Source of the DNA: a virus
IMG/VR virus record: IMGVR_UViG_3300030329_001900
Span: 1-50,165 of that record
Strand: one strand, 5' to 3'
Length of the DNA stretch: 50,165 nucleotides
The notes beneath the pieces were generated by a model. It worked only from the letters and a program-made list of their open reading frames with translations. It did no database searches and had not been told where the DNA came from. Shown here in pieces: positions 28,429 through 50,165 of the stretch (the stretch's first letter is position 1; every line of letters begins with the position of its first letter). The translations under genes and the position numbers were made by a program.

Positions 28429-28433
28429 ATTAT

Positions 28434-30095
28434 TTATTTTACTGTTATGTTAATTGTTTTTTCTGCACTATCATTTGTACCATCATTAAGCTTGTATAAT
28501 ATTCTATCATTACCAACAAAATCTGGATTAGGCGTATATGAAAAAGTTCTACCACTGATAGATGCTGTGCCATTTTTAGGTTCAGATGTTTTTACTGCTG
28601 TCTTAGTTGATCTATCAATATCACCTTCTATTGTTTTAATAGAAAAACTTGTTGAATTTTTTGGTACTTCTACGTTGTAATTTAAAGCGTTAGGAGTTCT
28701 TGTTATTATATTATTTAAATCTAACGTATAAGTTACATTTCTTTTTCCAAATCTCAAAAAATTAATAACGTTTTTTATTACAATAGTATTAGTGCCACTT
28801 CCTGTAAACGTAGAAGAGCTTTTAACTTTAGAAATATCATCATCAAGTGTTAAAGTCATACCATCTATTATCATTATTGGATTAGTTAAATCAACACAAG
28901 CGTTACCATCTTCGTTTATTTGAGTTTTAACTTTACCTATTGTAGAGCTAGTTCTATATATAAAAGTTATACTAGTGTCTTCAGGTATAATTACTTTTCT
29001 ATCAATTGTTATGTTTTTGCCACAATCAACAGATTGAATTAAAAATTTACCTAAACCAAATACTTCGCAAATCATGTCTGGAATTAAACCAACTGTATCA
29101 CTTAGTTCAAACTTATTAGTAGCTATTTGACATGTTTTAACATCTAAACTTTTATGAACTATTTTTTCTTTTATTAAAACACCTTTAATAAACATACCTT
29201 CTTTTATATCACTATTTATAGGATAATCTTGACCGCCTTTAGTTATATCTCCAGATGTTGTAGATCCTACGCTTGTTAAAGTAGAAGGTTTTAATATTAA
29301 ATACGAGCCTAACTTTGGCTCTTCGCTAGTAGTTACAATACGCTCAAAAGAAGTGTTTTTAGAAATAGAATTATTAAAATTATCTTTAATATAATAAAAA
29401 CCAGCTGTACTTCCAGCTTCACTATCTCCTACATTTTCTATAATTGTTAATGTTTGAGTAGTTGATACTGAAGATTTAGAAAAAGCAGGTCTTGTTACAG
29501 TTATATCGGAACCACCAGAAACAGTTGTACTTACTTCTGTTGGCGCTGAAGTATTAAGCGTTATAGTAGGATCTGCATATTGATATAAAGTTATTGGATC
29601 AACGCTTTCATATTTTGGCATATTAGGTAGTTGAAAACCTTTAAAAAATTCAGGTGTATCTTCTTCTGATAAATTTTTAAGCTCTTTTATTTCTTCTGTT
29701 TCTTCTACTCCGTCAAAATTATAAGGATATTTTTTATAAAAATCTTCTAATTCTTTAATTTGTTTTTCATAAGGTTTTAAAAATAAATCTATATCAAACT
29801 CAGTTTGAACATCTGCGTGTGGTGTTATTTTTATTTCGTAACTTTCTTCTATTAAACCACCTGCTGTATTAGTTGAAATATCTGGAAAAGTTTGATTTAA
29901 AATATAGACACCAGACCTTGGTATCTCTATATTTTCCAAAGGGTTTGCTAATATACAATTACCACTACTATCATTTATTTCTAAAGAAAAACCAGAACCT
30001 TGAGTGCCGTTTATTTTAATAGCTCTTGTTTCTCCTTTAGAATTTATAGGCGCGTCTTGATTATCTACTTTAATTGATGTTATTCTTTTTTCCAT
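28434..30095 (-). CDS. Tail-associated protein with Ig/cadherin-like C-terminal domain
   Basis: The 553-residue protein begins MEKRITSIKVDNQDAPINSK and has an N-terminal beta region (SGFSLEINDSSGN), an acidic helical linker (about 115-160) and a middle with GMFIKGVLIKEK and FELSDTVGLIPDM segments. The last about 60 residues (EPKNGTASISGRTFSYTPN, then FVGNDRILYKLNDGTND) match the tandem-95 / cadherin-like bacterial Ig domain, ending in the typical final strand TINITVK. Such domains are common in phage tail fibres and bacterial adhesins. It starts 13 bases after the giant tail gene, so it is probably a tail accessory or fibre protein. Confidence 0.65.
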   Translation of the reverse strand: MEKRITSIKVDNQDAPINSKGETRAIKINGTQGSGFSLEINDSSGNCILANPLENIEIPRSGVYILNQTFPDISTNTAGGLIEESYEIKITPHADVQTEFDIDLFLKPYEKQIKELEDFYKKYPYNFDGVEETEEIKELKNLSEEDTPEFFKGFQLPNMPKYESVDPITLYQYADPTITLNTSAPTEVSTTVSGGSDITVTRPAFSKSSVSTTQTLTIIENVGDSEAGSTAGFYYIKDNFNNSISKNTSFERIVTTSEEPKLGSYLILKPSTLTSVGSTTSGDITKGGQDYPINSDIKEGMFIKGVLIKEKIVHKSLDVKTCQIATNKFELSDTVGLIPDMICEVFGLGKFLIQSVDCGKNITIDRKVIIPEDTSITFIYRTSSTIGKVKTQINEDGNACVDLTNPIMIIDGMTLTLDDDISKVKSSSTFTGSGTNTIVIKNVINFLRFGKRNVTYTLDLNNIITRTPNALNYNVEVPKNSTSFSIKTIEGDIDRSTKTAVKTSEPKNGTASISGRTFSYTPNPDFVGNDRILYKLNDGTNDSAEKTINITVK

Positions 30096-30108
30096 TTAAA
30101 ATTATTTT

Positions 30109-33100
30109 TTATGCTACAAATGTACAACTTGTATCTACATATATACCAACAACATTACTGCCAGCAGTTGTTCTTTGAGAGTTGCAATACTCAACTCTAG
30201 TTTGTTGACCATTAGCACCAGTTCCACCTGAAGTTCCAGGTACTACACCACTACCTACATGAATAACAGTGTTTGTGTGTACTATAGTGTTATCGTAAGG
30301 TACAGAACCTGTAGAACTATTAGTACCAAAACCACTTGGACCAGATATAAGATCAAGATTTAAACTTGTTAAATCTACAAGTGGACTTATGTATAAATCA
30401 GTTAAATTACTAGGTGTAAAAGTTGTACTTGTAGAAACTTGTCCAGTACCTATACTAGTTCTTTTAGAACAGTAAATATAATTCATGTTAGGATTATTAC
30501 TAAGATCAAGAGTAGTTAGTAATGTATTTTCAGCAGTAATACGATTTAAATTAGTATTATTAGAAAGATCTAAAGATGATATTTGTGTAGAATCAATAAA
30601 AAGTTTTTCTAATGAAGTATTTGTAGTTACGTCTATACTAGTAAGCGCCACGTTGCCACGCACGCCTAACAGTCTTAAATCATCAAGACCTGTAACATTT
30701 ACACTGTTTAATGGTTGCGTGTTATTAAAAGAAAACTGTCCTCCGGTTACAAAACTTGTAAGTGTACTAGGCTGTAAACCAGCTCTTCCTTGCTGGCTAG
30801 GTATGTTTATATATTTCAATTTACTATTGTAATAATTAGGAACGCTTGCTAAAACAGAAAAATCAGGATTATGTAAAAAGGTTCTAGCAGCAATAAAATG
30901 TGTAAGATTTATAAAAGCGCCAATACCAGTTATATCTTTTATATAATAATCTTTATTTGGATAAAACGCGTCATTAACATTCATACTTGATAATGTCATA
31001 TAACCTGATATATCTAAATGACTAACCCAATCAATTCTATTTTTATTAACACAGTTGTCTTTAATATTATTACCCATATTATTACTAGAAGTAAAAGCAG
31101 GAGAATTCGTAGTAAAATCGTTAATATCGCTATTGTTAGAAATAGCACCAGAAGGATTGTTTAAAGAACCTGGCCAAAATTCACTATAAACAGCGCTGAC
31201 ACCTGCTGAATATCCTTGTCTAGTTTCTAAAAACTTCTCAAAATTATCGTCTGGAATGTGCACGCCATTAATCCCGCAATCACCACCTGATGAACTTGTA
31301 ATATGATTACAACTAATATTTAAACCTTGATACAATTGACAACCTAAATTATCAGTTATTGTGAAATACCAATAACCATTATAATTAGGATTATTACTTG
31401 ACCATATTTGTGGTTGTGGATTTGCTTGAGAAGTACTTACCGACTGTTGAACAGGAGTTGTTAAATTACCAGAGTCAAAAACAATTTGCGACGTATTTGT
31501 ATTAAGATCATACCAAAAAAGCTGTACACTACAACTAGTTGCATTAGTTTGGATGTTAATAGGCGACCATGTTATTTTAGCATCTTCGTTGTCACCAGAC
31601 AAACACTCAATACTTGTTGTATTTTGCACTTGAAAATTACAAGTAGGATTTGTAGCAGGCGTACAAGGTACTATTTCATTACAAGGAACATCAAAACTAT
31701 GGAAACTCTTACAACCATCTTGAGCTGTCCACACTAGCATATAACTATTGCCTGATACTGCTGTGCTTTCTAAACCAGGAACAAAACCAATATTTCCATT
31801 ATTGTTAGAAATAGATGTAAAAGGACCTTGCAAACTTCCTACAGGTGTTGCAGTATTAATGTCAAATTGCGTACCTGCAGTATAAGAATAATACTGAACA
31901 TTATAACTAGTAACAGAAGCAGGTAGAACTATTTGTAGTACTTCGTGAGAGCCATTAGCAAAGCCTGTAATAGAAGTACAGTCATCAGAGTCAGAAGATA
32001 TTATATCTTCACCTGGTGATGCGTTAGGATCTATAATTATTGTGTCTACACAAAAATCAACGCACTCTAATATTACATTTACATCGTTATAAACACAACC
32101 TGTGTTATCTGTATATTTTATAGTATAAACACCCTGTTCAAGACCTTGTATATTATCTCCTTGTTGAGCAGTAAACCCAGATCCAGAAGCAACTAAATTT
32201 TGTTGACCAAAAAATGGGTTCCAAGGATTTGGTGCGTTTATATATAATTCATAACCCCAAGTTGTAGCAGGTGGTAACAAAGTAAAATTAGTTATACTAA
32301 TAGAACCATCGTAAGATCCACCAGGATTAGCGTCACCTATTTCCCAGCATCTATTAAGTGCAGGGCTAAAAGTAGGATCATTTTTTGAAACATTAAAAGT
32401 TCCAGGAGAAGTTTGACAAGGCAGTTGATCGCACTCAATATCAAACGCGACTATAGTTTTACATCCTAAATCATCTACAACAACAGCGTTGTAAGAACCT
32501 TCGTTTAGTTGTTGATTAGAAGAATAACCACCAACAGTATATGTAGTGTTGTCTACAAGAACTGTTACTCCTGACATGTCTTCATAATGAACGTTCCAAC
32601 TCGTAGCAGTTCCAGACAAATAAACTTCTACAGACACGCTTCCAATACAAAGACGATTTGTAACTGTTGTAGGTATACCGTTAACAGGGTGTACAGTTAC
32701 TAAATTAGGAACACTACAATCTGTGTTGCATTTAGAGTTAGGATCGTTTTCACATTGTGACAAGCTAGAATATGTACCGTTTACACCTTGTATTTCAACA
32801 CAAATATGTGTAGCGCTTACTGTTGAACCTGGTGGAGTTGCTGTGTTTATTGCCGTGTATTCAGCATATGTCATGCCTTTAAAATATCCTGTGTCAGGAC
32901 ATAATCTTATTAACTCGCTTATAACATCGTCAATAGTCTTATAAACACCTACAACATTTCCTAAAGTTGAATCTACAAGAGAAAATCCTTTTAATATTCT
33001 TCCTGTGTTGTAAGTAAAATTAGAATTATACATAGGATCTGTAGAAGGAGTTAAACAAATATCTGCTGGAGCTGTTGGCGAAAGAGCATTACCAACTACA

Positions 33101-36100
33101 GGATATCTCCAATTATCTACGTTTTCTGAAGGATTATCCCAAAACCATTGTAACAACGTTGAAGCGCCAGGATTACCAGAAGTAGTAGGATAAATAGGTA
33201 TACTTTGTCTACTACTACAACTTCCATTAGAGTCGGTTGCTCTTGCTGGATGTCCACTTGTAGATACTCCATAAGGACAGTGTGCACCTTGTTTTATTTT
33301 TTGTTGACAATCCCAAGATGTGAAATCATCGTCATCAAATGTTAAAGCTTTTAACTCATCAATACCTTGATAAGACAACTCTCTAGTATCTATATTACCA
33401 GCGTTACCATCATCTAACCATTCTGTAGCAACACCTTTAATAGTAGAAAACCATTTACCTTCTTTATTTTTAAACTCTTCAGGTTCTACTTCTTGTAAGT
33501 TAGTATACATGTTATCTACATACCAACCAGTTTTTTCATAGTTATCCCAATATTCACCAGAGTTATCTACATCAATACTAATTTTAGATTGAGTACCTTC
33601 GTAATCTATTGTTTGAAAACTTTTTACAGAACCAGGTTGCTCGTTAAAAATAACTTCTACACTAGACTCTGTAAACTCATTGTAAAAAGTATTATAAAGC
33701 TCGTTGGCGTGGTGCTGATATAATAAACCGCTTTTAAATGTAAAATATTCATTGTTTAAACTTAAACCGTTTTCAAAATAAAAAGATTTAAAACTTGGCC
33801 AACCTTTAGATCTTTCAGAATAAGATAAAGTGTAAGGTTCTTTATCATCACTTGAAGAGTATATTCTAGTTTGATATATACTATCACCTGGAACACCAAA
33901 AACTTGAATACCATAAGGTATTGGATTTCCTAAAACACTAACATCATTTTGGTCTGGAGTATTGTTTATATTTATTTTATACAAACCTCCACCTAAATTT
34001 ATCTTAGAAGTAACTATAGTACCAACAGGTATACCAGCGCCGTATATAGTGTCACCAACTTGTATTTTGTTAGCTTCTTTATAAGTAGCAGTTAAAACGT
34101 TTACAGGCGCGTAAGTAGGCGGTGGAGTCGGTTGTCCTGCAGGAGCAAAAGTAAATTGTGGTGTACTTAAAATACCTACTGGCAAGCTTTCATAGCTAGT
34201 ATAATCTAAACTAATATTATATTCTTTTTTCTTGTCGTCAAAACTACCTATTACTCTACCAGCTTCTGGCAAGTTATCAGCAAACCATTTAGACATACCA
34301 TATTGTGATATAGGTGTTAAACCGTCCATAGATAATCTCAAAACTGTACCTCTTGTTCTATCTGAAAAATATAATCTATAATTATCATAAGCAAAAGACT
34401 CAGGGTTTGTTGAAATACCGTAATCACCAGCAAAAGGTACAGTTTGACCTAAAACATTTTCTGTAGCTGTTAATTGCGGATTACCATCAGCGTTAAACAA
34501 AGCGTCTTTATTTGCTAGTATTTTAAACACTTTGTCTTCACAAAAAGTTACTAAATCTGTATTTCTAGCAAAAAGTTTTTGTATGCTACCGTGACTAGGG
34601 TTTAAGTCTTTAGTTATTTTTTCTGCTTGTATAAATTGATTTAAATTATTAATACCACTAATAGAATTATATATACCAGAGTATATAAGCCCGCTGCTTC
34701 TACGTTCTTCTTTATAAGGTTCTTCAAGCACAGCAGAAACTTTAGGTCCTTTGTCTATAGTAACTTGATTAAAGTCATCTCTAATACGATTAGATTCAAC
34801 ACCATTACCAAACGAATAAGCATTAAAAAACGGAAGTGTCATCCTGTAATTGTGAACATCAGTAAAAAGTTCGTATTTGTTTGAATTACCAGGAGACACT
34901 ACGCTTTTAATTTGAACACTCGTAGAGCTTCCATCAGGCCTTGTAAAAACTAGTAAATGTCTTGCTGATGGAATAATTTGTCCACTTCCAATAGCACCAT
35001 TTAATGGGTTATAATTTACATCTATAAGATACACAAAAACTTGATCATTGAAAGTTGTAACACTAGAAACTCTAATATCAGTATCATCATTAGTATTATT
35101 AGCTGCAGTATTTAAATTTATTTTATTTCCGTTTGTGTCAAAACAAGTTACAACAGGGTTTTTTATAGGTTGTGGATGTATAGGGCCTATGTAGTTTGAT
35201 AAAGTTTCTCTTGTTAATTCCGTAGGATACACTTGTCCAACTTCGTGATATATTTCAAGTCCTAAATTATCTTTTGGTTCTGTTTCCCAAACAGCAGGAT
35301 TTAAAGTAAAATAACCTTCATCTAAACCGTCTGGAGTATAGGATTCTAATAACTGCCATGTAACACTTCCAGGCGCTGGGCTAATATTACCAGATCCATC
35401 TTGCATTTTTAACTTTGGAATATCAGTAAAATTATTACTATTTAAAGTATAATATACACCACCAGAAGCACCACCTGTCATATCATAACCAGAATACATG
35501 CCATCTGGACGTATACCCGGTGCTGGTGTAGAAGGAAGTGTAGTTAAAACATCTCCATTTTGATCAAAATGCGGTGCGTTATTAGGATTGTTTGTAGGCT
35601 TGTAAAAGTGAGGACTAACACCACCTACACCTTCTGTTCCAGTTAAGCCTCCTTGTGGAAAAACGGCACAGTGAATAGTAAAACGTCTTCTTTTGTTGCT
35701 AGCGGAGTTCCATTTACTTGTAAAAGTAGGATATCTTTTTCTATTACCGTAAAAACCAAAATGATCTAGTCCTTCTTGTACCACTTGTAAATCTCTTTGG
35801 TTATATTCTCTCTGAACAAGAAAATTACTAGCATCTACTGGAAGAGCGCCTTTGTAATGCTCTTGGTAATTTCTTAAACCATAAGAAGCTAAATTATTCA
35901 TTTCATAAGTTCCACTACCGAATAAAAACCAACTCCAACTAAGAGGATTAAATAAATAAGCCCGAGCCGATCTTGTATGTGTTGCGGAATAATCAGAAAT
36001 ATAAGCGTAATTATAAAGAGAAACACCAGGATAATTATCTATTGTATCAAATTCGTTTGCTGCCCATATAGAAGCGTTAGTACCGAAAGAAGTGCTAGCA

Positions 36101-39100
36101 GCATCAAGCGGTAGTGTTCTGTAAACAACTTGACCTGGATCTTCTTTCCATCTCCATATAGCTCCAGGGCTAGTTATAGTGTTTATAAATAAAGTTTGAT
36201 CAACGTAATCATTTGCGTTATCGGCAATTGTAAAATAAGATTTAACATTACTTAAACTATCAAAATCTTCTACTGGTTTATTTAACTGATTAGTACCAGC
36301 GAAAGAAAGAGTAATTAAAGCACTATTTTTATTTGACATATTGTTTTCTGAAATACCAACGCCAGGCAATATACCACCTCCATCAGAAATTGGTGCTCTT
36401 CTAATAACAGAAGTACCAGGATAAGCGGTATTAAAAGGATTAAATGTAACGTTAGTTTCTATTGGTGTTTTTACAAGCGGATTTTCTAAATAACCACCGC
36501 TTGGTCCACCTTGCCCTCCACTAATGTGATTTGTACCATCTCCAATTAATTGCATCATTTGTTGAGGCCTTTGAGGTTGACCATAGTTATAACCAGGGTG
36601 GGCATTATCAAAAGCACTTTTTGGGTCACCTGAATCATAGAGATCATTGTGAGTTTTTATAGATCCATCACTATGGTAAGATGCTAATCCATCCATGTGC
36701 ATGCTTGTAGTTATGCTTAAATATGAACTATTTGCATAGTTAGACGATGGTGATACAAAATACTTATTATTAGACTCATAAGCTCTAAAACCTTCTATAC
36801 TATCTATAAACCATCCACTAGACTGACTTTCATTATTTTCTGTTTTACCAGCCAACTCCCAATAGTCCTGACCAACACCATCGTCAAAATTACCACCTGG
36901 CGCACCATATCCGTTGTCGTTATTGTCATTATCTACAGAAACTAAACTTGTATTACCGTTGGCAACTACACCGTACCAGCTTGAAGCACCGATAGCAGTG
37001 CCAGGGTCATAAACACTTCCTGTTACAGCAGCTGGTGAATTAGGATTTATATATTGAGATTTTATAGATTGACTTACTGAATATGCGCCTGTAGTTACTT
37101 CGTAACCTAAAATATTTTGTGTTAGTGTTGCGTCTTTTAATATTTTTACAAAAAATCTACCTTCAAACTCTGGAAGATTTTTTTCTTGTCTAGTTATAAA
37201 TTCTATTCTATTACCACTATAAGCTGGTTCAGTAGGAGATATTTGAGTGTCAAAAATAGTTGTTATACCCATATCAACTCCAAATTCTTTTGTAGGTCTA
37301 AATCTTATATAATCATCGTTAGCTGTTGAAATTTCCACAGATTTAAGATCATACCAATTAGAAGCTCCTTCTTGCGAGCTTATAATTCTAAACTGAAACC
37401 TAGTACCACCACTAGCTATATCAGCAGCTAAACTCTCGTCATAAGCATTTTGAACAGCTTCGGCAAAGTCTTTGTGTATATCTATAAATCTTCCTCCTGT
37501 AAAAGGATAAGAACTATTTTCAGTACCAGGAGCTGTTGGACTACCAACCATAAAAATAGAAGCTACATTATTACCAGCTGCATCTTGAACAAAACCGTCG
37601 GTTATAGTTCTAACCGGTGTTCTTTTTGTTTTTATAAAAGCAGGCGCTTCATTTTCTATATCTAGTATTTTATATCTCGCTTTGTTTGTAACAGGCTCAT
37701 TTGATTCATGAGCTTTTTTAAGAATTAAAAACGTTTCTAAATCTACTTTGTTTCTATCAGAAGAAGGAAAAGAAAGCCATATATTACCATCTTCAGCTGG
37801 ATACCAACGATCCATAGCTAAATTATAATACTCACTTGTAGTTTCTTTAACTAAAAATTTAAATGATTTTGCAAAATCAGGTTTAGCGTTTAATATCTGC
37901 GCTTGAAGTTTTGTTTGTTGTGGTGCTGAAGTTTTAGATACGTATGTTGTATTAGCATTATTTTTTGATGTAGAAAAAACAGGTGTTTCTCTACCATATT
38001 CGTCAATATAAATAACACCTAATTGATATGTTCTAAGAGATTTTATTGTTTTAGCAGACTTATAATTATAAGCGTTACCAGCATCTAATTGTTCTGGTAT
38101 TAAACTAGTATTATCATTTATAGATAAAGATTTATAATTAAGTTTTAAATCAGTCGTTATATTGTTTGATGGTCTAAATCTTTTAACACCGGTAGCATCA
38201 CGAAGTGCTTCTGAATTGTAAGTTTTAGAAGAAGACATATTAAAGTTTTGCAAATAATTTGCGTAAACTAATCTATTACCTATAACTTCTTGTGCTAAGG
38301 CTTTTCTAGGCACGTTATCATAGTTTCTTAAAAGTTGATTTGAAGGCAATAAAGAGTGTATCATTTCAGCTTGAACATCTACATAACCGTGCATGTTATC
38401 CCAAGCTGTTCGTAATCCTGTAGGTGATATAGCGTTCCAAGAGTCATATTCTGTACCTTGTGGATTAGACCAATAAGGCGTGATCTTATCTATTGTTTTA
38501 ATAGAAAAAACAGATGGAGAGTCTGACTCTTTGTATAATACATCTATAGAAACAACATCATCTGGTATAGCGTGTTTATCTATAAATTTACAAACACCAA
38601 GCTGTCTAACTCTATTTACCATTGCTAAATTATAACCTTCTTTAGGTAAATAATCATATTCTCCAGGTAAAAAAGCTACTTCTGAAAATGGTGAAAAAGA
38701 AGAATACTCGCCATCTTTATATTTATATCTAGTAGCAAATCTAGGAAATCTAAATTCAAAAAGAGCTTTTTCTTGAGAAAGATAAACATTAAATTGAGTA
38801 TCAGATAAATCTATAGAATTATCCCAGCTTAATAGCTCTACTGTACATGATAATCTTCCACTAGAATAAACTATGTTAGGATAATTATTACTAGCAACAA
38901 TTTGTACTAATATTTTTGTTTTTTTAAGTGTAGATGTACTAGCATCAAAAGATTCTATAATTAATATATCATCTATCTTAAAATCTGGATCTGTGTCAAA
39001 AGTAACATCAAATGTACTATTTATTTTTGGTTGTTGATCATTATAATCATACCAGTTTGTTATATCAAAAGGAGTTGCACCACTACCTAGCGTTGTTTGT

Positions 39101-39825
39101 ATTTCACCTATTATTGGACCAGATCCAACCTGATCTTCACGTGAAGTGTTTTTCATTTCTAGCGTAGGCGCTATTTGAGGACTTTTTTTAATTACTGTTA
39201 TATGCTCTTCTTTTAAATCACCAACAGAAACAAAAGGTATAGTATTAGCTTGAGGTTTAAAAGGATTAGGAATAAAAAACTCTGTATGAGTAAAAAAGTT
39301 TGTAGTACCTATTCTTATTTGAGGTATGTTTATTCTTTTTGGCTCTGTATTATTATCTGTCCAAAATAAAGTTTCATCTACTATATTAATACCTGTTATT
39401 AAATAACTTTTGTCATAGTTTAAAATTCTACCATTTGCTCCTGGTGGCAAAGAAGGTTGAAATATATCAACTACAATTGGTGAAACTTTTTTTGTGTTGT
39501 AATCATATTCAGCTATAAAATCAATACCAGCACCGGAAACTAGCCAATATAATCTATCAGTTTTTTCATCAAGAATACTTCCAACACAATAAAAACCATA
39601 AGTTTCTAAAGTAGTAGTAGGTACAACATCTCCGTTTTGATCTATAAAAAAAGCAGATGAAATATCTAAATTACCCATAATATTCTGCAAAGAACCAATA
39701 TCAGAATCGTCAGTAGTAGATACTTGCGCGTTCATTGCATCTCTATACTCTCCGTTTGGAACTAGTCTTTCGTCCAGGTCTTTGTTCATACGACCTGTTT
39801 GAAACCTGTGATTTAAATCCGGCAT
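30109..39825 (-). CDS. Giant tail protein with SprB-like and leucine-rich repeat adhesin modules, 3238 aa
   Basis: Residues 1 to about 2190 form a tail core of a type frequent in marine podoviruses. It begins FQTGRMNKDLDERLVPNGEY, with RYKYKDGEYSSFSPFSEVAF near 360 and YDNYRLYFSDRTRGTVLRLS further on, suggesting a tail-tube/hub protein. Residues about 2390-2845 hold four Cys-rich modules, each ending in a pattern like GLEQGVYTIKYTDNTGC and then a strand ending in Cys. These resemble SprB repeats of flavobacterial gliding adhesins. Residues about 2849-3238 are a Bacteroidota-type leucine-rich repeat domain opening VHIPDDNFEKFL, with LDLSNN repeats. The C-terminal part is probably the receptor-binding region. 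It starts five bases after the adaptor gene's stop. The core assignment is moderate; the module resemblance is clear by motif. Confidence 0.78.
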   Translation of the reverse strand: MPDLNHRFQTGRMNKDLDERLVPNGEYRDAMNAQVSTTDDSDIGSLQNIMGNLDISSAFFIDQNGDVVPTTTLETYGFYCVGSILDEKTDRLYWLVSGAGIDFIAEYDYNTKKVSPIVVDIFQPSLPPGANGRILNYDKSYLITGINIVDETLFWTDNNTEPKRINIPQIRIGTTNFFTHTEFFIPNPFKPQANTIPFVSVGDLKEEHITVIKKSPQIAPTLEMKNTSREDQVGSGPIIGEIQTTLGSGATPFDITNWYDYNDQQPKINSTFDVTFDTDPDFKIDDILIIESFDASTSTLKKTKILVQIVASNNYPNIVYSSGRLSCTVELLSWDNSIDLSDTQFNVYLSQEKALFEFRFPRFATRYKYKDGEYSSFSPFSEVAFLPGEYDYLPKEGYNLAMVNRVRQLGVCKFIDKHAIPDDVVSIDVLYKESDSPSVFSIKTIDKITPYWSNPQGTEYDSWNAISPTGLRTAWDNMHGYVDVQAEMIHSLLPSNQLLRNYDNVPRKALAQEVIGNRLVYANYLQNFNMSSSKTYNSEALRDATGVKRFRPSNNITTDLKLNYKSLSINDNTSLIPEQLDAGNAYNYKSAKTIKSLRTYQLGVIYIDEYGRETPVFSTSKNNANTTYVSKTSAPQQTKLQAQILNAKPDFAKSFKFLVKETTSEYYNLAMDRWYPAEDGNIWLSFPSSDRNKVDLETFLILKKAHESNEPVTNKARYKILDIENEAPAFIKTKRTPVRTITDGFVQDAAGNNVASIFMVGSPTAPGTENSSYPFTGGRFIDIHKDFAEAVQNAYDESLAADIASGGTRFQFRIISSQEGASNWYDLKSVEISTANDDYIRFRPTKEFGVDMGITTIFDTQISPTEPAYSGNRIEFITRQEKNLPEFEGRFFVKILKDATLTQNILGYEVTTGAYSVSQSIKSQYINPNSPAAVTGSVYDPGTAIGASSWYGVVANGNTSLVSVDNDNNDNGYGAPGGNFDDGVGQDYWELAGKTENNESQSSGWFIDSIEGFRAYESNNKYFVSPSSNYANSSYLSITTSMHMDGLASYHSDGSIKTHNDLYDSGDPKSAFDNAHPGYNYGQPQRPQQMMQLIGDGTNHISGGQGGPSGGYLENPLVKTPIETNVTFNPFNTAYPGTSVIRRAPISDGGGILPGVGISENNMSNKNSALITLSFAGTNQLNKPVEDFDSLSNVKSYFTIADNANDYVDQTLFINTITSPGAIWRWKEDPGQVVYRTLPLDAASTSFGTNASIWAANEFDTIDNYPGVSLYNYAYISDYSATHTRSARAYLFNPLSWSWFLFGSGTYEMNNLASYGLRNYQEHYKGALPVDASNFLVQREYNQRDLQVVQEGLDHFGFYGNRKRYPTFTSKWNSASNKRRRFTIHCAVFPQGGLTGTEGVGGVSPHFYKPTNNPNNAPHFDQNGDVLTTLPSTPAPGIRPDGMYSGYDMTGGASGGVYYTLNSNNFTDIPKLKMQDGSGNISPAPGSVTWQLLESYTPDGLDEGYFTLNPAVWETEPKDNLGLEIYHEVGQVYPTELTRETLSNYIGPIHPQPIKNPVVTCFDTNGNKINLNTAANNTNDDTDIRVSSVTTFNDQVFVYLIDVNYNPLNGAIGSGQIIPSARHLLVFTRPDGSSTSVQIKSVVSPGNSNKYELFTDVHNYRMTLPFFNAYSFGNGVESNRIRDDFNQVTIDKGPKVSAVLEEPYKEERRSSGLIYSGIYNSISGINNLNQFIQAEKITKDLNPSHGSIQKLFARNTDLVTFCEDKVFKILANKDALFNADGNPQLTATENVLGQTVPFAGDYGISTNPESFAYDNYRLYFSDRTRGTVLRLSMDGLTPISQYGMSKWFADNLPEAGRVIGSFDDKKKEYNISLDYTSYESLPVGILSTPQFTFAPAGQPTPPPTYAPVNVLTATYKEANKIQVGDTIYGAGIPVGTIVTSKINLGGGLYKININNTPDQNDVSVLGNPIPYGIQVFGVPGDSIYQTRIYSSSDDKEPYTLSYSERSKGWPSFKSFYFENGLSLNNEYFTFKSGLLYQHHANELYNTFYNEFTESSVEVIFNEQPGSVKSFQTIDYEGTQSKISIDVDNSGEYWDNYEKTGWYVDNMYTNLQEVEPEEFKNKEGKWFSTIKGVATEWLDDGNAGNIDTRELSYQGIDELKALTFDDDDFTSWDCQQKIKQGAHCPYGVSTSGHPARATDSNGSCSSRQSIPIYPTTSGNPGASTLLQWFWDNPSENVDNWRYPVVGNALSPTAPADICLTPSTDPMYNSNFTYNTGRILKGFSLVDSTLGNVVGVYKTIDDVISELIRLCPDTGYFKGMTYAEYTAINTATPPGSTVSATHICVEIQGVNGTYSSLSQCENDPNSKCNTDCSVPNLVTVHPVNGIPTTVTNRLCIGSVSVEVYLSGTATSWNVHYEDMSGVTVLVDNTTYTVGGYSSNQQLNEGSYNAVVVDDLGCKTIVAFDIECDQLPCQTSPGTFNVSKNDPTFSPALNRCWEIGDANPGGSYDGSISITNFTLLPPATTWGYELYINAPNPWNPFFGQQNLVASGSGFTAQQGDNIQGLEQGVYTIKYTDNTGCVYNDVNVILECVDFCVDTIIIDPNASPGEDIISSDSDDCTSITGFANGSHEVLQIVLPASVTSYNVQYYSYTAGTQFDINTATPVGSLQGPFTSISNNNGNIGFVPGLESTAVSGNSYMLVWTAQDGCKSFHSFDVPCNEIVPCTPATNPTCNFQVQNTTSIECLSGDNEDAKITWSPINIQTNATSCSVQLFWYDLNTNTSQIVFDSGNLTTPVQQSVSTSQANPQPQIWSSNNPNYNGYWYFTITDNLGCQLYQGLNISCNHITSSSGGDCGINGVHIPDDNFEKFLETRQGYSAGVSAVYSEFWPGSLNNPSGAISNNSDINDFTTNSPAFTSSNNMGNNIKDNCVNKNRIDWVSHLDISGYMTLSSMNVNDAFYPNKDYYIKDITGIGAFINLTHFIAARTFLHNPDFSVLASVPNYYNSKLKYINIPSQQGRAGLQPSTLTSFVTGGQFSFNNTQPLNSVNVTGLDDLRLLGVRGNVALTSIDVTTNTSLEKLFIDSTQISSLDLSNNTNLNRITAENTLLTTLDLSNNPNMNYIYCSKRTSIGTGQVSTSTTFTPSNLTDLYISPLVDLTSLNLDLISGPSGFGTNSSTGSVPYDNTIVHTNTVIHVGSGVVPGTSGGTGANGQQTRVEYCNSQRTTAGSNVVGIYVDTSCTFVA
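31300..32660 (-). repeat. Four SprB-like coding modules in the tail protein
   Basis: Four divergent modules of about 125 residues end in NEGSYNAVVVDDLGCK, EQGVYTIKYTDNTGCV, GNSYMLVWTAQDGCKS and NGYWYFTITDNLGCQ, each followed by a strand ending in Cys (FDIEC, VILEC, FDVPC, LNISC). The G.Y...V.D..GC signature is that of SprB and similar Bacteroidota surface repeats. Copies are diverged at the nucleotide level. Confidence 0.65.
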
Positions 39826-39829
39826 TTAA

Positions 39830-41161
39830 TTAATGTTTAATTTGTTTTGATTTACCTCTTAATATTTGAGTAATTTCTTCTAGTTTGATGTTAGAAAGTC
39901 TTAATTTTGCTTTTCTTGTTTCAGCAAATCTTTCTTTTTTAAATCTTCTTATTATATATTCTGGAACACCTATTTTAGCTGATAAACAACCGTAAATTAT
40001 CCATTTGTATATAGCTTCTTCAGCTAGTTTAGGTACAATCATTTCTCCGTGTGTACCTACGCTGTCACTTATATATTCTAATATCACAGTTTTTCCAGAT
40101 AAATTAGAGCTAAAATGAATTAAACTAGTTTTACAATCTATATAATAACTACCGTTTACTTGAGCATGTTGTGGGTCTAAACCATATCTTTTACCTTCAT
40201 TTGGCCAATAAATATCGTTTTGATAATCTTGATAATCATTTATATTGTTTTCTGAAGGAGTATGTGATTTAAATTTGGACCAAGTGTCTGATATTTTATC
40301 TGTTGATAAAAAATTTACATTTTCAGCTGTACCAGTGACTGCTGCTGAACTAGACGTTGTTATAACAGCACCTTGTATATCTATTATAGTAGTACCAGTA
40401 ATAAAGTCGTCATGTGAAACTAACATACCTATAGATAAATTACCAATAGAATCTGATGAAGAAGCTGTTATTTTATCTTCACCAGAAGTCCAAGACAAAC
40501 CTGTTACAACTTCAGAAGAAGATCTTTGCATTAATAAATCTCCATCAGTACTAGAAAAAGTTAAAGTTTCATCTCCACTAAATGTAGCATTATTACTTAT
40601 AGTTATAGTTGTTATACCATTAACAGTTGACGTTGCTTTAACAGTTGTACCAACTGGTATGTTAGCAGCAGACACAGGCATGCCAACAAAAACATCAGTA
40701 TAAGAATTATCAAGTGTTATAGAATCAGAACCATCTACAAGCGTGCCTATAGCTGTTAATTTATAATCACCTTCAGAATTTTGTTGTATTGGATGTGGAT
40801 TTGAGGTTTTACTAGTTGGATATATGACATGTTGTATACCAGCATCATCACTCCAAGACAATTTAACATAGTTAACATAGTCCTGGGGTAAAGGCATTGT
40901 TAAACTAGGTGGTATTTCTATTTCTTGAGTTTTACAAGATTTTAAAGTATCATAAGATAATTCTTGAAGAGCTCTATGAGCGTGAAAGCTAACGTCAGCT
41001 CTAAGAGTTTTTTGTAATAATTTTCCTTCGCCAATATAAGTTGCTGTAAAATTATTTATAACTTCTTCTAAAGTAATAAATTGATATGAACCAAATCCAA
41101 TTAAGTTGTCGTAATATTGTTGTTGGCTAATTCCTTGATTTCCTAATAATCCGTGTGGCAT
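39830..41161 (-). CDS. Tail tubular A-like / adaptor protein with inserted beta modules
   Basis: The 443-residue protein has helical ends of adaptor type (FITLEEVINNFTATYIGEG ... DVSFHAHRALQELSYDTLKS at the N-terminus; MIVPKLAEEAIYKWIIYGCL at the C-terminus). These resemble head-to-tail adaptor or tail tubular A proteins of podoviruses. Two beta modules are inserted in the middle (about residues 138-285): GMPVSAANIPVGTTV ... ITISNNATFSGDETLTF, and GMLVSHDDFITGTTI ... TGTAENVNF. They look like a repeated surface domain. It follows the 232-residue connector gene and precedes the giant tail gene, the position of T7 gene 11. The role is inferred from order and helical pattern. Confidence 0.62.
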   Translation of the reverse strand: MPHGLLGNQGISQQQYYDNLIGFGSYQFITLEEVINNFTATYIGEGKLLQKTLRADVSFHAHRALQELSYDTLKSCKTQEIEIPPSLTMPLPQDYVNYVKLSWSDDAGIQHVIYPTSKTSNPHPIQQNSEGDYKLTAIGTLVDGSDSITLDNSYTDVFVGMPVSAANIPVGTTVKATSTVNGITTITISNNATFSGDETLTFSSTDGDLLMQRSSSEVVTGLSWTSGEDKITASSSDSIGNLSIGMLVSHDDFITGTTIIDIQGAVITTSSSAAVTGTAENVNFLSTDKISDTWSKFKSHTPSENNINDYQDYQNDIYWPNEGKRYGLDPQHAQVNGSYYIDCKTSLIHFSSNLSGKTVILEYISDSVGTHGEMIVPKLAEEAIYKWIIYGCLSAKIGVPEYIIRRFKKERFAETRKAKLRLSNIKLEEITQILRGKSKQIKH

Positions 41162-41164
41162 ATT

Positions 41165-41863
41165 TTATTGTTTTTCTTGTTGTATTTTTGCCGTGTCTAA
41201 AGCAATACCTGTTTGCGCTAGTCCTGGTTTATTTATTGTTATACCGGCTAAAGTTAATATTTTATAAACCAATTCTGTTTCTTCAGACTCGTGTAATTCA
41301 AAATTAGTTGCTCTACTAGCGTTGTATAAAGCTTTTTCATTTATAACATCATAACCCCATTCAGCTTTGTTAGGTCTAGATATTATTTCACAAGTAACAT
41401 TGGTTGTTACTATGCCGTTGTGATCGTATACTTCTATATCAGAACCGCTAGAACTACTTTTGATATATATTGGGTTTCTAAATAAACCTCGTCTATGAAA
41501 TTGAGAATAAAGATAATTTTTTGCTTCGTTAGTTTCTACTAATTCAGCCTCATGAATTACAGTATTACTTTGAACATAAACACTGCCTGTTCTATAATTA
41601 TCAGGATAATTAGATCCATTTATAACAGTTTGCACTGTTGTAAAAGGCGCTAGTTTATTTTCAATCAACTCTATCATATCTGAAGTAGAAGTTGTATCTG
41701 TAGGTACTTGTTTAGCTATATCTAAATCGTAAAAGTATTGTTCAAATATTTGTTGTTGAGCTTGATTTGCATGCAAATTAAATTCTAAAGGTGTTATATA
41801 ACCTCTTTGCTCTTTGTTTGCTAAAGCTAAAACTCTTTGATATACAGTATCTATATTTACCAT
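41165..41863 (-). CDS. Head-tail connector-type structural protein, 232 aa
   Basis: The protein starts MVNIDTVYQRVLALANKEQR with an N-terminal helix pair (ITPLEFNLHANQAQQQIFEQ). A beta middle (IYIKSSSSGSDIEVYDHNG) follows, then a C-terminal helix (ELHESEETELVYKILTLAGI). This layout is common for marine-phage proteins between the capsid gene and the tail genes and is compatible with an adaptor or connector. No sequence motif identifies a family with certainty. It ends four bases before the 443-residue adaptor-like gene on the same strand, which suggests the two act together at the head-tail joint. Confidence 0.6.
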   Translation of the reverse strand: MVNIDTVYQRVLALANKEQRGYITPLEFNLHANQAQQQIFEQYFYDLDIAKQVPTDTTSTSDMIELIENKLAPFTTVQTVINGSNYPDNYRTGSVYVQSNTVIHEAELVETNEAKNYLYSQFHRRGLFRNPIYIKSSSSGSDIEVYDHNGIVTTNVTCEIISRPNKAEWGYDVINEKALYNASRATNFELHESEETELVYKILTLAGITINKPGLAQTGIALDTAKIQQEKQ

Positions 41864-41868
41864 TTTTA

Positions 41869-42057
41869 TTATTTTTTATATGGAAAAGCTTTATTTAAAG
41901 CTTCTTGTCTTTTTTTACAGCCACAATCTTTTTTTCCAACAGCTCTTGCGCTCATTTGCGCTAAACTATGAATACCTGTTGCTTTTGTAAACTTATGTAT
42001 TGTATCTCCTAAGCCCCTAGATTTTTTAATGTAATTTGGTAAATTATTCGTATTCAT
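41869..42057 (-). CDS. Small Cys/Lys-rich conserved phage protein, 62 aa
   Basis: The 62-residue protein has an amphipathic segment GLGDTIHKFTKATGIHSLA and ends in KKDCGCKKRQEALNKAFPYKK. The CGCKKRQEALNKAFP ending recurs in small phage proteins that I recall from Bacteroidota and marine phages, with no known function. The paired Cys could bind metal. Its ATG lies shortly after a strong hairpin on the same strand (42081-42098). A structural or assembly role is likely from position between capsid and connector genes. Confidence 0.6.
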   Translation of the reverse strand: MNTNNLPNYIKKSRGLGDTIHKFTKATGIHSLAQMSARAVGKKDCGCKKRQEALNKAFPYKK

Positions 42058-42080
42058 GTTAAAAATTTTTGTAGCTTGTA

Positions 42081-42098
42081 ATCGCCCCGTAGGGCGAT
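42081..42098 (-). terminator. GC-rich hairpin between late genes
   Basis: A perfect seven-base stem ATCGCCC/GGGCGAT with a CGTA loop lies in the 57-base gap between the 271- and 62-residue genes, standing out in AT-rich DNA. No T tract follows directly on the minus strand (the run TTTTT comes 15 bases later), so it could be a weak terminator, a processing site or an mRNA stabiliser. Confidence 0.45.
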
Positions 42099-42114
42099 CA
42101 CCACTACAGTTAGA

Positions 42115-42930: not shown

Positions 42931-42954
42931 AATATAATATATAATAAAATTAAT

Positions 42955-42989
42955 AAAATAAAAAGCCGAGGCCGAAGCCTCGGTCTTTT
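42955..42989 (-). terminator. Terminator after the major capsid gene
   Basis: On the minus strand the stem CCGAGGC-TTCG-GCCTCGG is flanked by AAAAGA on the 5' side and a T-rich tract (CTTTTTATTTTATT) on the 3' side. The UUCG tetraloop gives high stability. It begins 10 bases after the capsid stop and precedes the next gene by about 30 bases. It probably ends most transcripts after the highly expressed capsid gene while letting some continue. Confidence 0.85.
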
Positions 42990-42998
42990 AAAAATAGT

Positions 42999-44516: not shown

Positions 44517-44536
44517 AATTTTGTAATTTTAAATTG

Positions 44537-45751: not shown

Positions 45752-45778
45752 AATATAATATAATAATAGTTAATAAAT

Positions 45779-48196
45779 TTATCTAGGTGTAAAACCCCCT
45801 AAATCAATGCCGCCTCCTAGTATATCATTACCTGAAGACTCAAAGTTTTTAGGTGGTTTTCCACTTTTTCTTTGGTCAATCATTTCTGATTGTTGTGTAG
45901 CTTGTATTTTAGTTCTTTCGTCTTTACGATCTTCTTTTTCTTTTTCTCTACTCTTCATACCTTCAACTTCCATACCTTTTAATTGCATGTTGTATTGAAA
46001 CTCTAACTCCATTAATTCTTTTTTCATAGCAACTTCTTGCATCATTTTGTTAGCTGCTATTTGAGCTTCTACTTGCATAAGCTCTGCTTTACTAGCGTTT
46101 AAAGCTTGATTTTTTTGAACGTCAGCTTGTGCCGCAGCTTGTGCTGATTGTTGATTAAGCTCTGCTTGTTGTTGCATGTTTTGTTGTTGTATTGCCTGGT
46201 CTTTATTTTGTTTCTTTCTTCTTCTTATTTTTAAAAGTTGATTAGCTAGTTTTATATTTCTTATTTCTCTTACATCTATAGCATCTTCTAACTCTATAGT
46301 TTTTTGTTGTAATGCCATTTGAATATTATTTTCTAACTTTGCTTTTTCTTCTTCATCAGGAGAAAGTTCTAAAAATATTCCAAAATCGTACAAATGTAAG
46401 CTTTTCATCTCTTCTAAAGTAGCAACGTTATGTGTTCCTATTGCTTCAATAAAAGCATCTCTTGTTGGTGAATACTCAATAATGTCAGATATTCTAAGTG
46501 ATAAACACTCTGCAATTTCAGAGGTTAAATATAAGCCAGCTTGTAATATATGTCTTGTTGCTGTATTACTATTTGCAGCAGCTAATTTTTGTATTCCAAC
46601 TAGAGCATTTTTATCTGGAGTACTACCATCTCTAGCTTCGTTTAACCCGGTTACATCTCTTATCATTTGTAAATAATAATTATAATTACCTATAAGCGCT
46701 TGCATTTTATTACCTCCACTACCAGATGTTATTTCTTGTATAGGGACTTTACCAGGGTTCATATCACCATCTTGTGTGAATGATCTACCAATTACAGAAC
46801 CTGTTTGAAAAAACATATTTAAAGCTTCTTGCGGGTTATAATTAGTACCGTTGCCAAGATCAACTTCAGCTAAACCATCAGCATCTAAATAAACACCATC
46901 TGGAACCATACGTGACATTACTTGTTGTAGTTTTAAATGAGTAAGCTGTATCATATCAGCAAAACCAGTTATACGTTTTACAAGCGAGTCAATTTTGCCG
47001 TTATACATGCGAGGCGCTACAATAGCATAATTCATTTTTACTTTAGTGTAATTACTTTTAGGACGCATCATATTTGTAGCCATTTCCCATTTAAGTAATT
47101 TATCTGTGCCTAGTATTAAAGCGCCTTCATACAAAACTTCTATAGATCTTAATAATCTTGAATAATCACCTTCTTTATTTTGTGGTGGATTAAAAGAATC
47201 GTCTTTAGGTATTATTTTATCTGCTCCAGTTCCAGTTTCTTTTATTTTGTATACTTCATTCATGTAAGTTTTATAATTAAAATATAAAACTTGAATAGTA
47301 TTATTGTCTTCTTGTTTTGCAGAATAATTAGTATTATAATTATTTCTATTATAATTTTTATTATTCATTATGTCTTCAAGGTCGCTTTCTGTTAAGTGTG
47401 GGAATTGTTTTGCTAGTTCATTTACAGGTATTGATTTTACTTCACCAACGTAATATATGTCATCAAAATTAGGAGATTCAGAATATGAATAAACTAAATT
47501 AGCTGGATCAACATAGTCTATAGTAACGCCTTCTGAAGTAGTAAAATTTGTTTTTGTAGCTCCTATACCAAGAACCGCTAAATCATAATAAAATCTTTTC
47601 TTTATTGACTCGTAATCATTACCTTCAAACAAAACGTGTAACGCTTGTTCTTCTGCTATTTCAACCGCTTGCTTGTAGCTTAACTGCATGTGTAAAGCTA
47701 ATTCTTCTTCACTTTCTGGAAGTTCTTCTTTTTTATTTTCGTACAAGTCAGCATTAAAGTTTTCCATTGCGGCATCATTAAACTCTTTACTTTGTATATC
47801 TCGTAAAACAGATTCCATATATTCTGTTCTTTTTGCAATACCATAAGGATCTTGAGAATAAGCTTTTATATCATAAGTTCTTTCAGCTATGCCGTTAACA
47901 ACTATATCTACAAACTTAGATATTATAGGTACTGGCTTCCAGTCTAAATTTAAATAAGATAAATCACCATTTATAGATAATTCATCTTTGTACTTTTGTA
48001 TTGATTGTTCGCCTCTAGCATACAGTCTTAGATTATGAAAATCTTTAATATTAGACATATATCTATTAACACTTCTTTCTTCATTAAACCATTCTGCTTC
48101 TATAGCTTTAGCCACTTTCATACCGTAGTCGTAACTAATCTTTTCAGCATCACTTACAGTTTGACTTGGAAAATAACTTTTATTAGAATATGCCAT
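45779..48196 (-). CDS. Portal (head-tail connector) protein
   Basis: The 805-residue protein forms the dodecameric DNA gate of the head. The region DWKPVPIISKFVDIVVNGIA (about 80-105) is typical of large podovirus portals. A wing region carries YYDLAVLGIGATKTNFTT and VDPANLVYSYSESPNFDD. The stem and crown region has FADMIQLTHLKLQQVMSRMV and YYLQMIRDVTGLNEARDGST. The C-terminal about 170 residues are a Gln/Ala/Lys-rich coiled coil (QQQNMQQQAELNQQSAQAAA) followed by a Gly-rich tail. It begins two bases after the terminase stop and precedes the scaffold. Length is at the large end for portals, mainly due to the C-terminal extension. Confidence 0.88.
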   Translation of the reverse strand: MAYSNKSYFPSQTVSDAEKISYDYGMKVAKAIEAEWFNEERSVNRYMSNIKDFHNLRLYARGEQSIQKYKDELSINGDLSYLNLDWKPVPIISKFVDIVVNGIAERTYDIKAYSQDPYGIAKRTEYMESVLRDIQSKEFNDAAMENFNADLYENKKEELPESEEELALHMQLSYKQAVEIAEEQALHVLFEGNDYESIKKRFYYDLAVLGIGATKTNFTTSEGVTIDYVDPANLVYSYSESPNFDDIYYVGEVKSIPVNELAKQFPHLTESDLEDIMNNKNYNRNNYNTNYSAKQEDNNTIQVLYFNYKTYMNEVYKIKETGTGADKIIPKDDSFNPPQNKEGDYSRLLRSIEVLYEGALILGTDKLLKWEMATNMMRPKSNYTKVKMNYAIVAPRMYNGKIDSLVKRITGFADMIQLTHLKLQQVMSRMVPDGVYLDADGLAEVDLGNGTNYNPQEALNMFFQTGSVIGRSFTQDGDMNPGKVPIQEITSGSGGNKMQALIGNYNYYLQMIRDVTGLNEARDGSTPDKNALVGIQKLAAANSNTATRHILQAGLYLTSEIAECLSLRISDIIEYSPTRDAFIEAIGTHNVATLEEMKSLHLYDFGIFLELSPDEEEKAKLENNIQMALQQKTIELEDAIDVREIRNIKLANQLLKIRRRKKQNKDQAIQQQNMQQQAELNQQSAQAAAQADVQKNQALNASKAELMQVEAQIAANKMMQEVAMKKELMELEFQYNMQLKGMEVEGMKSREKEKEDRKDERTKIQATQQSEMIDQRKSGKPPKNFESSGNDILGGGIDLGGFTPR

Positions 48197-48197
48197 A

Positions 48198-50165
48198 TTA
48201 CTTTATTATTTGTGAATTAGATCCAGCGTTATTATATCTGGAAATATTTATATTTAGTTTAGGTTTTTCAACCTTAACGTTTGGCGCGTACAAATGTCTA
48301 TTGTTAGCCATTATAGCTAAACCAGAGCTTATAGTAGCGTCAAACTTTGTTCTTCTGTTTATATCAAATTTAGCCCAATCATTTAACAACTCGTTGAAAT
48401 AAAGATCACCACAGCTACCATCTTTTTTTATACCTACGTGATCTTGTATATACATTTCAATTGCCGCTGCGTGTGCTTGTTTTATATCTTCGCTAGAGTT
48501 TGGTATGCCACCAACTTCTTTTTCAGCAACAGATAACTTATTCCAAACTTTATCAGGTCTATTCATACTAAAACCTCTGTATCCTCTACGTCTTAAGTAG
48601 TATAAAAGACGAGGTTTATTATTCTCTGCAAGTATTGGCATGCCATAAAAAACTAAAGCCATTAAAACATCTTCAAAGAATATTTCAGCCGTAGGTGGTC
48701 TTGATAAGTATTCTAAAAAAAAGCTGTTCGCAGGAGCGTCCTCCATACTAAACTTGGTTAAGCCGTGTAATGCTCCTTTAGAACCTTCTCCATCTACGGT
48801 TCCTGATATATCATAAGAGTCGCAACCAAACGCTCCCATGTGTTCATTACCAGGATATTTAATACCATTTTTAAGTACCACTCTATTTTGTAATTGCTGG
48901 GGTGGAACCCAGCTAAGTTTAAATCTACCTTTATTATCTGGATAAAATATTACTTGTGAATCTTTAATACCATTAACCCATTGAAAATTACCAGTTGTAA
49001 TTCCTAAAGTTCTAGACATTTCTTCGTTATAGTCTATCTGCTCATATATTTTAACAAGATTAAATATAGAATTTTTAGTTTCATCTCTAAACGCATGTTC
49101 TTCAGTTCTTGGAAACTGTCTGTAAAACTCATTTAAAGCGTCTTGATCACCTTTTAATCCTTCTGCTTCATTATTCCAATGATCAACTACACCTATATCT
49201 ATTAGTTCACCGTCTGGGGCAAACACATCTGCGTCAGGAGTAGTGAATACTGGAACTCCGTGCTCGTCAATAAATCCTTCGTAGTTCCACTCCATTGGGA
49301 TAAACAAAGAGTATAAACCAGATTTTGTCTGACCATTTCTATTTCTTTTAGTGACATCTGATGCATTGTATAGTTTTTTAAAATTATCACCACCTTTATC
49401 TAAAGCGTTTGACGTTGAGCCCATCATACACTTGCCTATAATTCTACTACCTAATCTAAGACATGTTTTTGTAACACGCCAATTGTTTAATATATTATCC
49501 GGTCTTTCCCACTTACCACTTTCATCGTGTACTAATAACGCTAATTTTTCACCGTCATAACTATTGTCACCAGTGTTTTTCCAGTCTATAGTTGTATCTA
49601 GACCTTCTATTTCTTCTAGTTGCTCGTTAGCAGTAATCTTTTTTCTTGTAAACTTACTAGCTGGAACTCTATAAGCTAACTCAGTTTTAGGACGATCCAT
49701 ACCATCTTGAATAGGTTTAAAGAAAAAAGGATAATTAATACTAATAGGTACTACTTTGTCTGTAAACATTTTTTTAGCATCTGCACCTGTTTTAGAAAGT
49801 ATACCATATCTACTATCACTTGATATAGTGGCTAAATTAACTGTTTCTGCAGATGACATAAACGAAAAGCCTGATCTTCTGTTCTTTAGATAACACATAC
49901 CATAGCATCGTTTATCCGCTTTACAAGCTTCCCAAAATATAAAGAACAGTCTATTTGCCTCTCTAAAATCAGGCGCACCTACATCTATTTTACTCCATTG
50001 TAAATACATATAATGAGTTCCTACTATATAAGTTGGTTTACCATTATTTGTAAACCAAAAACCTTCATCTCTACGTTTAAACTCTTCATCTATATAGTCG
50101 TACCACTGTTCTTTTTGATCTTCAGGATAATTACGCCAGTCAAATATATTTTTAAGACGAGATAA
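48198..50165 (-). CDS. Terminase large subunit (5' end outside the window)
   Basis: The frame is open to the very edge of the window, 52 codons beyond the first in-window ATG (50009). These extra codons read ... NIFDWRNYPEDQKEQWYDYI ... EGFWFTNNGKPTYIVGTHYM, a conserved-looking N-terminal region, so the true start is upstream of position 50165 on this strand. The ATPase has a deviant Walker A-like segment YLKNRRSGFSF, a Walker B-like KLALLVHDESG with the D-E pair, and GSTSNALDKGG as likely coupling motif. The nuclease part starts around GAFGCDSYDISGTVDGEGSK, with Asp residues for metal. The enzyme cuts and pumps DNA into heads through the portal encoded next to it. Confidence 0.88.
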   Translation of the reverse strand, partial: LSRLKNIFDWRNYPEDQKEQWYDYIDEEFKRRDEGFWFTNNGKPTYIVGTHYMYLQWSKIDVGAPDFREANRLFFIFWEACKADKRCYGMCYLKNRRSGFSFMSSAETVNLATISSDSRYGILSKTGADAKKMFTDKVVPISINYPFFFKPIQDGMDRPKTELAYRVPASKFTRKKITANEQLEEIEGLDTTIDWKNTGDNSYDGEKLALLVHDESGKWERPDNILNNWRVTKTCLRLGSRIIGKCMMGSTSNALDKGGDNFKKLYNASDVTKRNRNGQTKSGLYSLFIPMEWNYEGFIDEHGVPVFTTPDADVFAPDGELIDIGVVDHWNNEAEGLKGDQDALNEFYRQFPRTEEHAFRDETKNSIFNLVKIYEQIDYNEEMSRTLGITTGNFQWVNGIKDSQVIFYPDNKGRFKLSWVPPQQLQNRVVLKNGIKYPGNEHMGAFGCDSYDISGTVDGEGSKGALHGLTKFSMEDAPANSFFLEYLSRPPTAEIFFEDVLMALVFYGMPILAENNKPRLLYYLRRRGYRGFSMNRPDKVWNKLSVAEKEVGGIPNSSEDIKQAHAAAIEMYIQDHVGIKKDGSCGDLYFNELLNDWAKFDINRRTKFDATISSGLAIMANNRHLYAPNVKVEKPKLNINISRYNNAGSNSQIIK

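Follow-up and report, generated by a model that had tools for sequence, protein, structure and literature searches.

Why should a phage tail protein end in modules that resemble those of flavobacterial surface adhesins, and what might they do there? The question is raised by a gene in a 50,165-nucleotide stretch of viral DNA (IMG/VR record IMGVR_UViG_3300030329_001900, the whole of which we refer to as the window). A first-pass annotation had described the N-terminal two-thirds of its product as a normal marine phage tail protein. It is a tail protein, but not a generic one. By its domain content and gene order, it is a crassvirus-type muzzle protein, since it matches phrog_14478 in a PHROG search (E 1.2e-128), carries the Pfam domain crAss_MUZ_C (PF25729; 36.1 bits against a cut-off of 27, and 39.1 bits for the core alone), and follows terminase, portal, and structural genes in an order shared with Cellulophaga phi38:1 and the Flavobacterium elemo phages (elemoC), whose muzzle gene neighborhoods match that of the window. 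The relevant features are as follows.

30109..39825, minus strand: muzzle protein gene with a C-terminal adhesin-like extension (3238 aa, single uninterrupted ORF)
33436..33696, minus strand: crAss_MUZ_C domain, residues 2044-2130 (Pfam, above gathering cut-off)
39830..41161, minus strand: virion structural gene immediately upstream of the muzzle (phrog_13977)
41165..41863, minus strand: virion structural gene, candidate tail ring protein by gene order (phrog_14543)
45779..48196, minus strand: portal protein (phrog_6547, E 1.2e-152)
48198..50165, minus strand: terminase large subunit, running off the window (phrog_6681, E 6.8e-161)

The crAss_MUZ_C model also exceeds its gathering cut-off in the muzzles of phi38:1, elemoC, and two IMG/VR relatives (L007 and L008). 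By tblastn, the muzzle matches 87 phage records, the hosts of which are nearly all flavobacterial (Cellulophaga, Flavobacterium, Tenacibaculum, and Maribacter); at the nucleotide level, positions 28000-48000 of the window had no match among named phages. The C-terminal third of the protein recurs unchanged in a longer IMG/VR record, IMGVR_UViG_3300030098_003745 (L002; 100% over 1053 aa). In phage crAss001, cryo-EM revealed the muzzle to be a tail-tip hexamer that gates ejection, and it was proposed that it contacts the cell surface and opens upon contact (PMC10172136). The crAss001 muzzle, gp44, has the C-terminal domain PF25729 in common with the window muzzle, where it scores above cut-off; however, the window muzzle adds to this an adhesin-like C-terminal extension of 1082 aa. 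Published length variation among muzzles concerns the crass and IG2 domains and not a C-terminal arm (PMC10172136).

The boundary between core and extension was set by aligning extension-less relatives (L007, 2041 aa; L008, 2078 aa) and isolates. The core ends near residue 2156, at a conserved.QGI. motif where the extension-less relatives stop. Beyond it lie a variable spacer, four Ig-like modules, and a leucine-rich repeat (LRR) domain. Cysteines are concentrated in this extension, which holds 31 of the 37 in the protein, compared with 6 in the 2156-residue core. The interval initially singled out (30109-32660) falls on the modules and the LRR but cuts into the first module; together these domains cover 30112-32718.

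33358..39825, minus strand: muzzle core, residues 1-2156 (alignment with L007, L008, and isolates)
32719..33357, minus strand: Cys-containing spacer, residues 2157-2369 (alignment)
32419..32718, minus strand: SprB-like Ig module M1, residues 2370-2469 (module profile; AlphaFold all-beta, pLDDT mostly 90-96)
32053..32418, minus strand: SprB-like Ig module M2, residues 2470-2591 (module profile; pLDDT mostly 58-89)
31666..32052, minus strand: SprB-like Ig module M3, residues 2592-2720 (module profile; low model confidence)
31300..31665, minus strand: SprB-like Ig module M4, residues 2721-2842 (module profile; low model confidence)
30790..31269, minus strand: Bacteroidota-type LRR cap with a long insertion, VHIPDDNFEKFL ... 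DITGIGAF, residues 2853-3012 (bacteria-only profile, domain E 6.6e-9)
30346..30756, minus strand: 21-residue leucine-rich repeats, residues 3024-3160 (bacteria-only profile, domain E 5.9e-19)

The extension was initially credited with four SprB-like Cys modules, and four are indeed present, starting at residues 2370, 2470, 2592, and 2721. An iterated profile search found 30 copies of the module in 11 muzzle extensions and, among the viral loci examined, its matches were confined to muzzle ORFs. Two Cys (the first and a C-terminal one) and the signature G.Y....D..GC are conserved. Literal membership of the SprB family had to be rejected, however, because the Pfam SprB model (PF13573), the very search proposed at the outset, returned no match in the window even at E 10; the same model exceeds its cut-off in 9 of 10 flavobacterial genomes. 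When the modules were instead compared with SprB repeats taken from flavobacterial genomes, hhalign gave a match of 96.4% (P 1e-9) that is collinear over 60 columns and includes the first Cys and the D..GC signature, whereas ten column-shuffled control profiles all scored below 0.3%. Likewise, a flavobacterial SprB-repeat profile matched the window extension modestly (E 4e-4) and the extensions of relatives with values down to 2e-9, compared with 0.0098 for the best shuffle. The modules thus appear to be remote relatives of SprB repeats, SprB-like rather than members of the family. They share the first Cys and the G.Y....D..GC signature with the SprB repeats (PF13573) found in the gliding adhesins and in other surface proteins of flavobacteria, but are longer (ca. 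100 to 130 aa, versus ca. 76 to 83 aa), have an additional C-terminal Cys, and go undetected by the Pfam model. AlphaFold predicts an all-beta fold for the tandem (pTM 0.37), in which only M1 and M2 are well predicted and M3 and M4 are poorly modeled; the structural matches of the model are tandem Ig-like proteins, among which is GhpA, a giant adhesin from the bacterium Aureispira.

The identity of the terminal domain is firm: it is a Bacteroidota, internalin J-like LRR, and the initial description of a Bacteroidota-type LRR was borne out. A profile built from 48 bacterial domains only matched the window protein with E 1.1e-24 (cap match at residues 2857-2990, repeat match at 3048-3156) and found none of 200 shuffled copies of the domain. 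The motif VHIPDDNFEKFL begins at residue 2855, and the [IV]PDxxFE cap is followed, as in the bacterial proteins, by I.D.TG...F; the cap columns P, D, F, E, L ... I, T, G, F are invariant in the 52 rows aligned, including the window. No Pfam LRR model exceeded its cut-off in the window. Internalin J (3bz5), on the other hand, matches the domain by sequence (E 4.1e-12), and it is also the top Foldseek match (E 5.6e-7) of the AlphaFold model, a solenoid with a pTM of 0.70 and pLDDT values of 85 to 95 at model residues 200-280. Overall, the confidence of the AlphaFold models of LRR and modules is moderate. The cap motif, the 21-residue repeats, and the predicted fold are those of internalin J and of Bacteroidota [IV]PDxxFE LRR surface proteins; the window domain differs in its long cap insertions, its few recognizable repeats, and its location on a virion protein. 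The motif [IV]PDDNFE was rejected as a diagnostic on its own, since several of 20 viral pattern matches were chance occurrences in short or unrelated ORFs.

Both module types are, as had been suggested, types found in host surface adhesins; they are common in Flavobacteriales, occurring in 98 and 65 of 196 sampled genomes, respectively. The best 80 genome loci for the LRR family are, by title, nearly all from Bacteroidota and overwhelmingly from Flavobacteriales. At best, however, the phage LRR is 31 to 53% identical to bacterial LRRs, over short stretches. The initial suggestion was that the phage may have captured host adhesin parts. The modules are widespread in Flavobacteriales, and transfer was presumably from bacterium to phage, but because the phage copies are divergent, a recent capture is unsupported.

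The extension differs widely among related muzzles. In IMG/VR, a profile of the muzzle C-terminal core matched at least 510 stretches, the best 80 of which were examined. Among the 77 muzzles with complete cores, the extension is shorter than 50 aa in 26, between 50 and 99 aa in none, and at least 100 aa long in 51 (for the eight of the 77 that are cut at contig ends, the length is a lower limit). Within the clade of the window, the core is 66 to 74% identical and the modules are only about 30% identical, and the terminal domain is not shared. The nearest relative, L034, has a core 74% identical and four modules 32% identical to those of the window, and a Hint domain instead of the LRR (Vint, PF14623; 46 bits, above cut-off; L034:11507-14563, plus strand; extension residues 882-1002), possibly a self-processing domain on a phage muzzle. 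In L035, the terminal domain is a divergent LRR, and in L036, the extension terminates in unrelated sequence; the terminal repeats of the latter resembled chitin-binding modules by eye, an assignment we dropped because no Pfam model backs it. In L023, whose muzzle occupies two frames on its contig, CTDPxAxNY Cys repeats link the core to a clear LRR (LRR_4 exceeds its Pfam cut-off). In L065 and L067, a motif resembling the cap is present, and any LRR signal is weak at best. As judged from these alignments, the C-terminal part of the muzzle is exchanged between phages with similar cores, which answers in the affirmative the question, raised at the outset, of whether this region is swapped. Global-alignment identities of 0.31 to 0.50 between extensions were discarded as evidence, as unrelated sequence scores about 0.3.

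The following counts come from a rapidly built tree in which there are open forks and some of the branches are long, which makes the exact numbers of changes and p-AU values uncertain. On this tree, extensions were gained or lost at least 11 times. A single clade was rejected (p-AU 1e-5; at least four changes) for the five rows initially scored as LRR bearing, again when L035 was added (five changes), and for the four strong LRR cases alone (four changes; p-AU 0.0002), although a single origin is not rejected for the LRRs of the window, L035, and L045 (p-AU 0.16). Variation is also seen on a finer scale. The block equivalent to the spacer is hypervariable among aligned relatives; between L004 and L005, the core is about 98% identical, residues 2201-2400 drop to 8 to 26 identities per block of 50, and identity then returns to about 94%. 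We ruled out diversification of the type driven by a diversity-generating retroelement (DGR), given that searching the rest of the window for a template copy of the extension yielded nothing beyond one 17-base match and that the L004/L005 block also varies by indels. Nor did the window extension match any Pfam or NCBIfam model of a type IX secretion (T9SS) C-terminal tail, as expected for a virion protein.

Taken together, we consider it probable that the C-terminal extension of the muzzle is a modular, exchangeable surface-binding arm at the tail tip. The muzzle would close the tip of a crassvirus-type short tail, and its ca. 1080 C-terminal residues would form a flexible arm consisting of the spacer, four presumably disulfide-rich Ig-like modules, and the terminal LRR. 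The arm would extend outward and most likely bind a surface structure of a marine flavobacterium; binding would draw the muzzle to the outer membrane and so permit it to open. If the muzzle is assembled as in crAss001, there would be six such arms. As in receptor-binding proteins, a conserved anchor is combined with a distal part that is exchanged among relatives; if host recognition is under selection, this would account for the loss, gain, and re-tipping of the arm among close relatives while the core stays constant. One detail of this arrangement may differ: a PDB sequence search returned no muzzle structure, that of crAss001 included, and with the muzzle C-terminus unplaced, the arm might depart from the ring-proximal side rather than the tip. 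A broader proposal, which we advance only tentatively and regard as rather doubtful at present, is that, in a very common phage group, arms for host recognition dock quite generally at the C-terminus of the muzzle and are replaced rapidly there; the host surface would then be read, and opening triggered, by the tail gatekeeper rather than by a separate fiber. The modules that come and go at this site are LRRs of host type, SprB-like modules, and Cys repeats, with a Hint domain in one relative.

Other explanations deserve consideration. The arm may be a general adhesive that holds virions near their hosts by sticking to particles, exopolysaccharide, a mucus-like matrix, or many bacteria, leaving recognition of a specific receptor to another fiber protein. 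Ig-like modules of phage virions have been linked to carbohydrate binding, and tandem BACON repeats occur on crAss tail proteins (PMC6949934). Moreover, further genes of the window look adhesive (Big_9/cadherin at 28434-30095, MAM at 9202-11961), and a third of the relatives are armless, so another protein can evidently suffice. Against this, the tip differs among close relatives and a single block varies alone, as would be expected of a specific binder. LRR domains, furthermore, usually bind particular proteins or glycans. On balance, we think a purely general adhesive unlikely. The extension might also be a ligand-free spacer or stabilizer made of filler domains, the exchange reflecting neutral turnover of a dispensable tail. 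This could account for the 26 of 77 relatives that lack an extension and for its repeated appearance and disappearance on the tree, but it sits poorly with frames that remain open for up to 1218 aa beyond the core, with the conservation of Cys positions and LRR cap residues, and with the repeated recruitment of the LRR, a kind of domain known from extracellular proteins that bind ligands; we regard it as very improbable.

Equally improbable, in our view, is molecular mimicry, in which the arm would copy host adhesins and join cell-cell contacts or engage the partners of SprB and LRR adhesins, perhaps homotypically. SprB-like and LRR modules are both found in host surface proteins, and the gliding machinery of F. 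johnsoniae has been proposed as a phage receptor (PMC7345892). However, SprB repeats are not known to self-associate, and the phage modules have drifted so far from the bacterial ones that Pfam SprB fails to match them.

The nearest precedent is the set of BACON repeats on crAssphage tail-associated proteins, for which host-surface binding was proposed (PMC6949934). In both cases, tandem Bacteroidota-type Ig-like modules are found on crAss-like tail proteins, and flavobacterial adhesin-type modules on virions thus parallel the BACON case in gut crAss phages; the window differs in that its modules are SprB-like, are followed by a terminal LRR, and are fused directly to the muzzle. In the papers we searched, coverage of which is incomplete, we found none that joins SprB or LRR modules to phage tails, describes SprB-like modules with an LRR tip on a muzzle, or reports turnover of such an arm across a large group. 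By tblastn, the C-terminal third and the LRR had zero matches among named phages, and we therefore know of no isolate in that collection with the window arm. Host recognition by crass-type phages is still largely open, and the phage of the published muzzle structure was not described with such an arm. Should the muzzle of marine relatives indeed bear an exchangeable arm for host recognition, host range in this group could be partly readable from one gene, and the link from surface contact to tail opening would be testable within one protein.

Several further observations concern related muzzles and neighboring genes. Cys repeats of the CTDPxAxNY...DDGSC type are frequent among the muzzle extensions of these phages (e.g., in L049, L063, and L023). 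L006, first taken for an extended relative by its length, was set aside, since its extra length is a large insertion within the core, possibly an alternative site for recognition domains; the muzzles of L006, L073, L075, L087, L100, and L113 are 2800 to 3500 aa long and armless. A number of viral contigs (L025:4325-4942, L028:847-1470, L029:609-1265 on the minus strand, and L224-L232) encode a ca. 206- to 219-aa protein of the VPDDNFE-capped LRR family with a signal-like start (MKKLLIILFMPLISMAQ) and a tail that resembles a T9SS sorting end, although without Pfam or NCBIfam support; it is possibly a phage-encoded, secreted protein. In the window, a Big_9/cadherin-like bacterial Ig domain (PF17963, 41 bits) ends the minus-strand gene directly downstream of the muzzle, and a 919-aa protein encoded far from the muzzle on the same strand combines a MAM domain (PF00629, 83 bits) with three Cys repeats of the CTDPxAxNY type. 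Genes on the opposite (plus) strand encode thymidylate synthase (2535-3191), a MazG-like protein (3188-3988), and ribonucleotide reductase (4733-6607). Finally, the product of window 27274-28428 (minus strand) and muzzle residues 1998-2081 match different ends of phrog_18548, and in phi18:3 and MW202828 a separate gene carries the sequence that matches the C-terminal part of the muzzle, which suggests splits and fusions of this domain.
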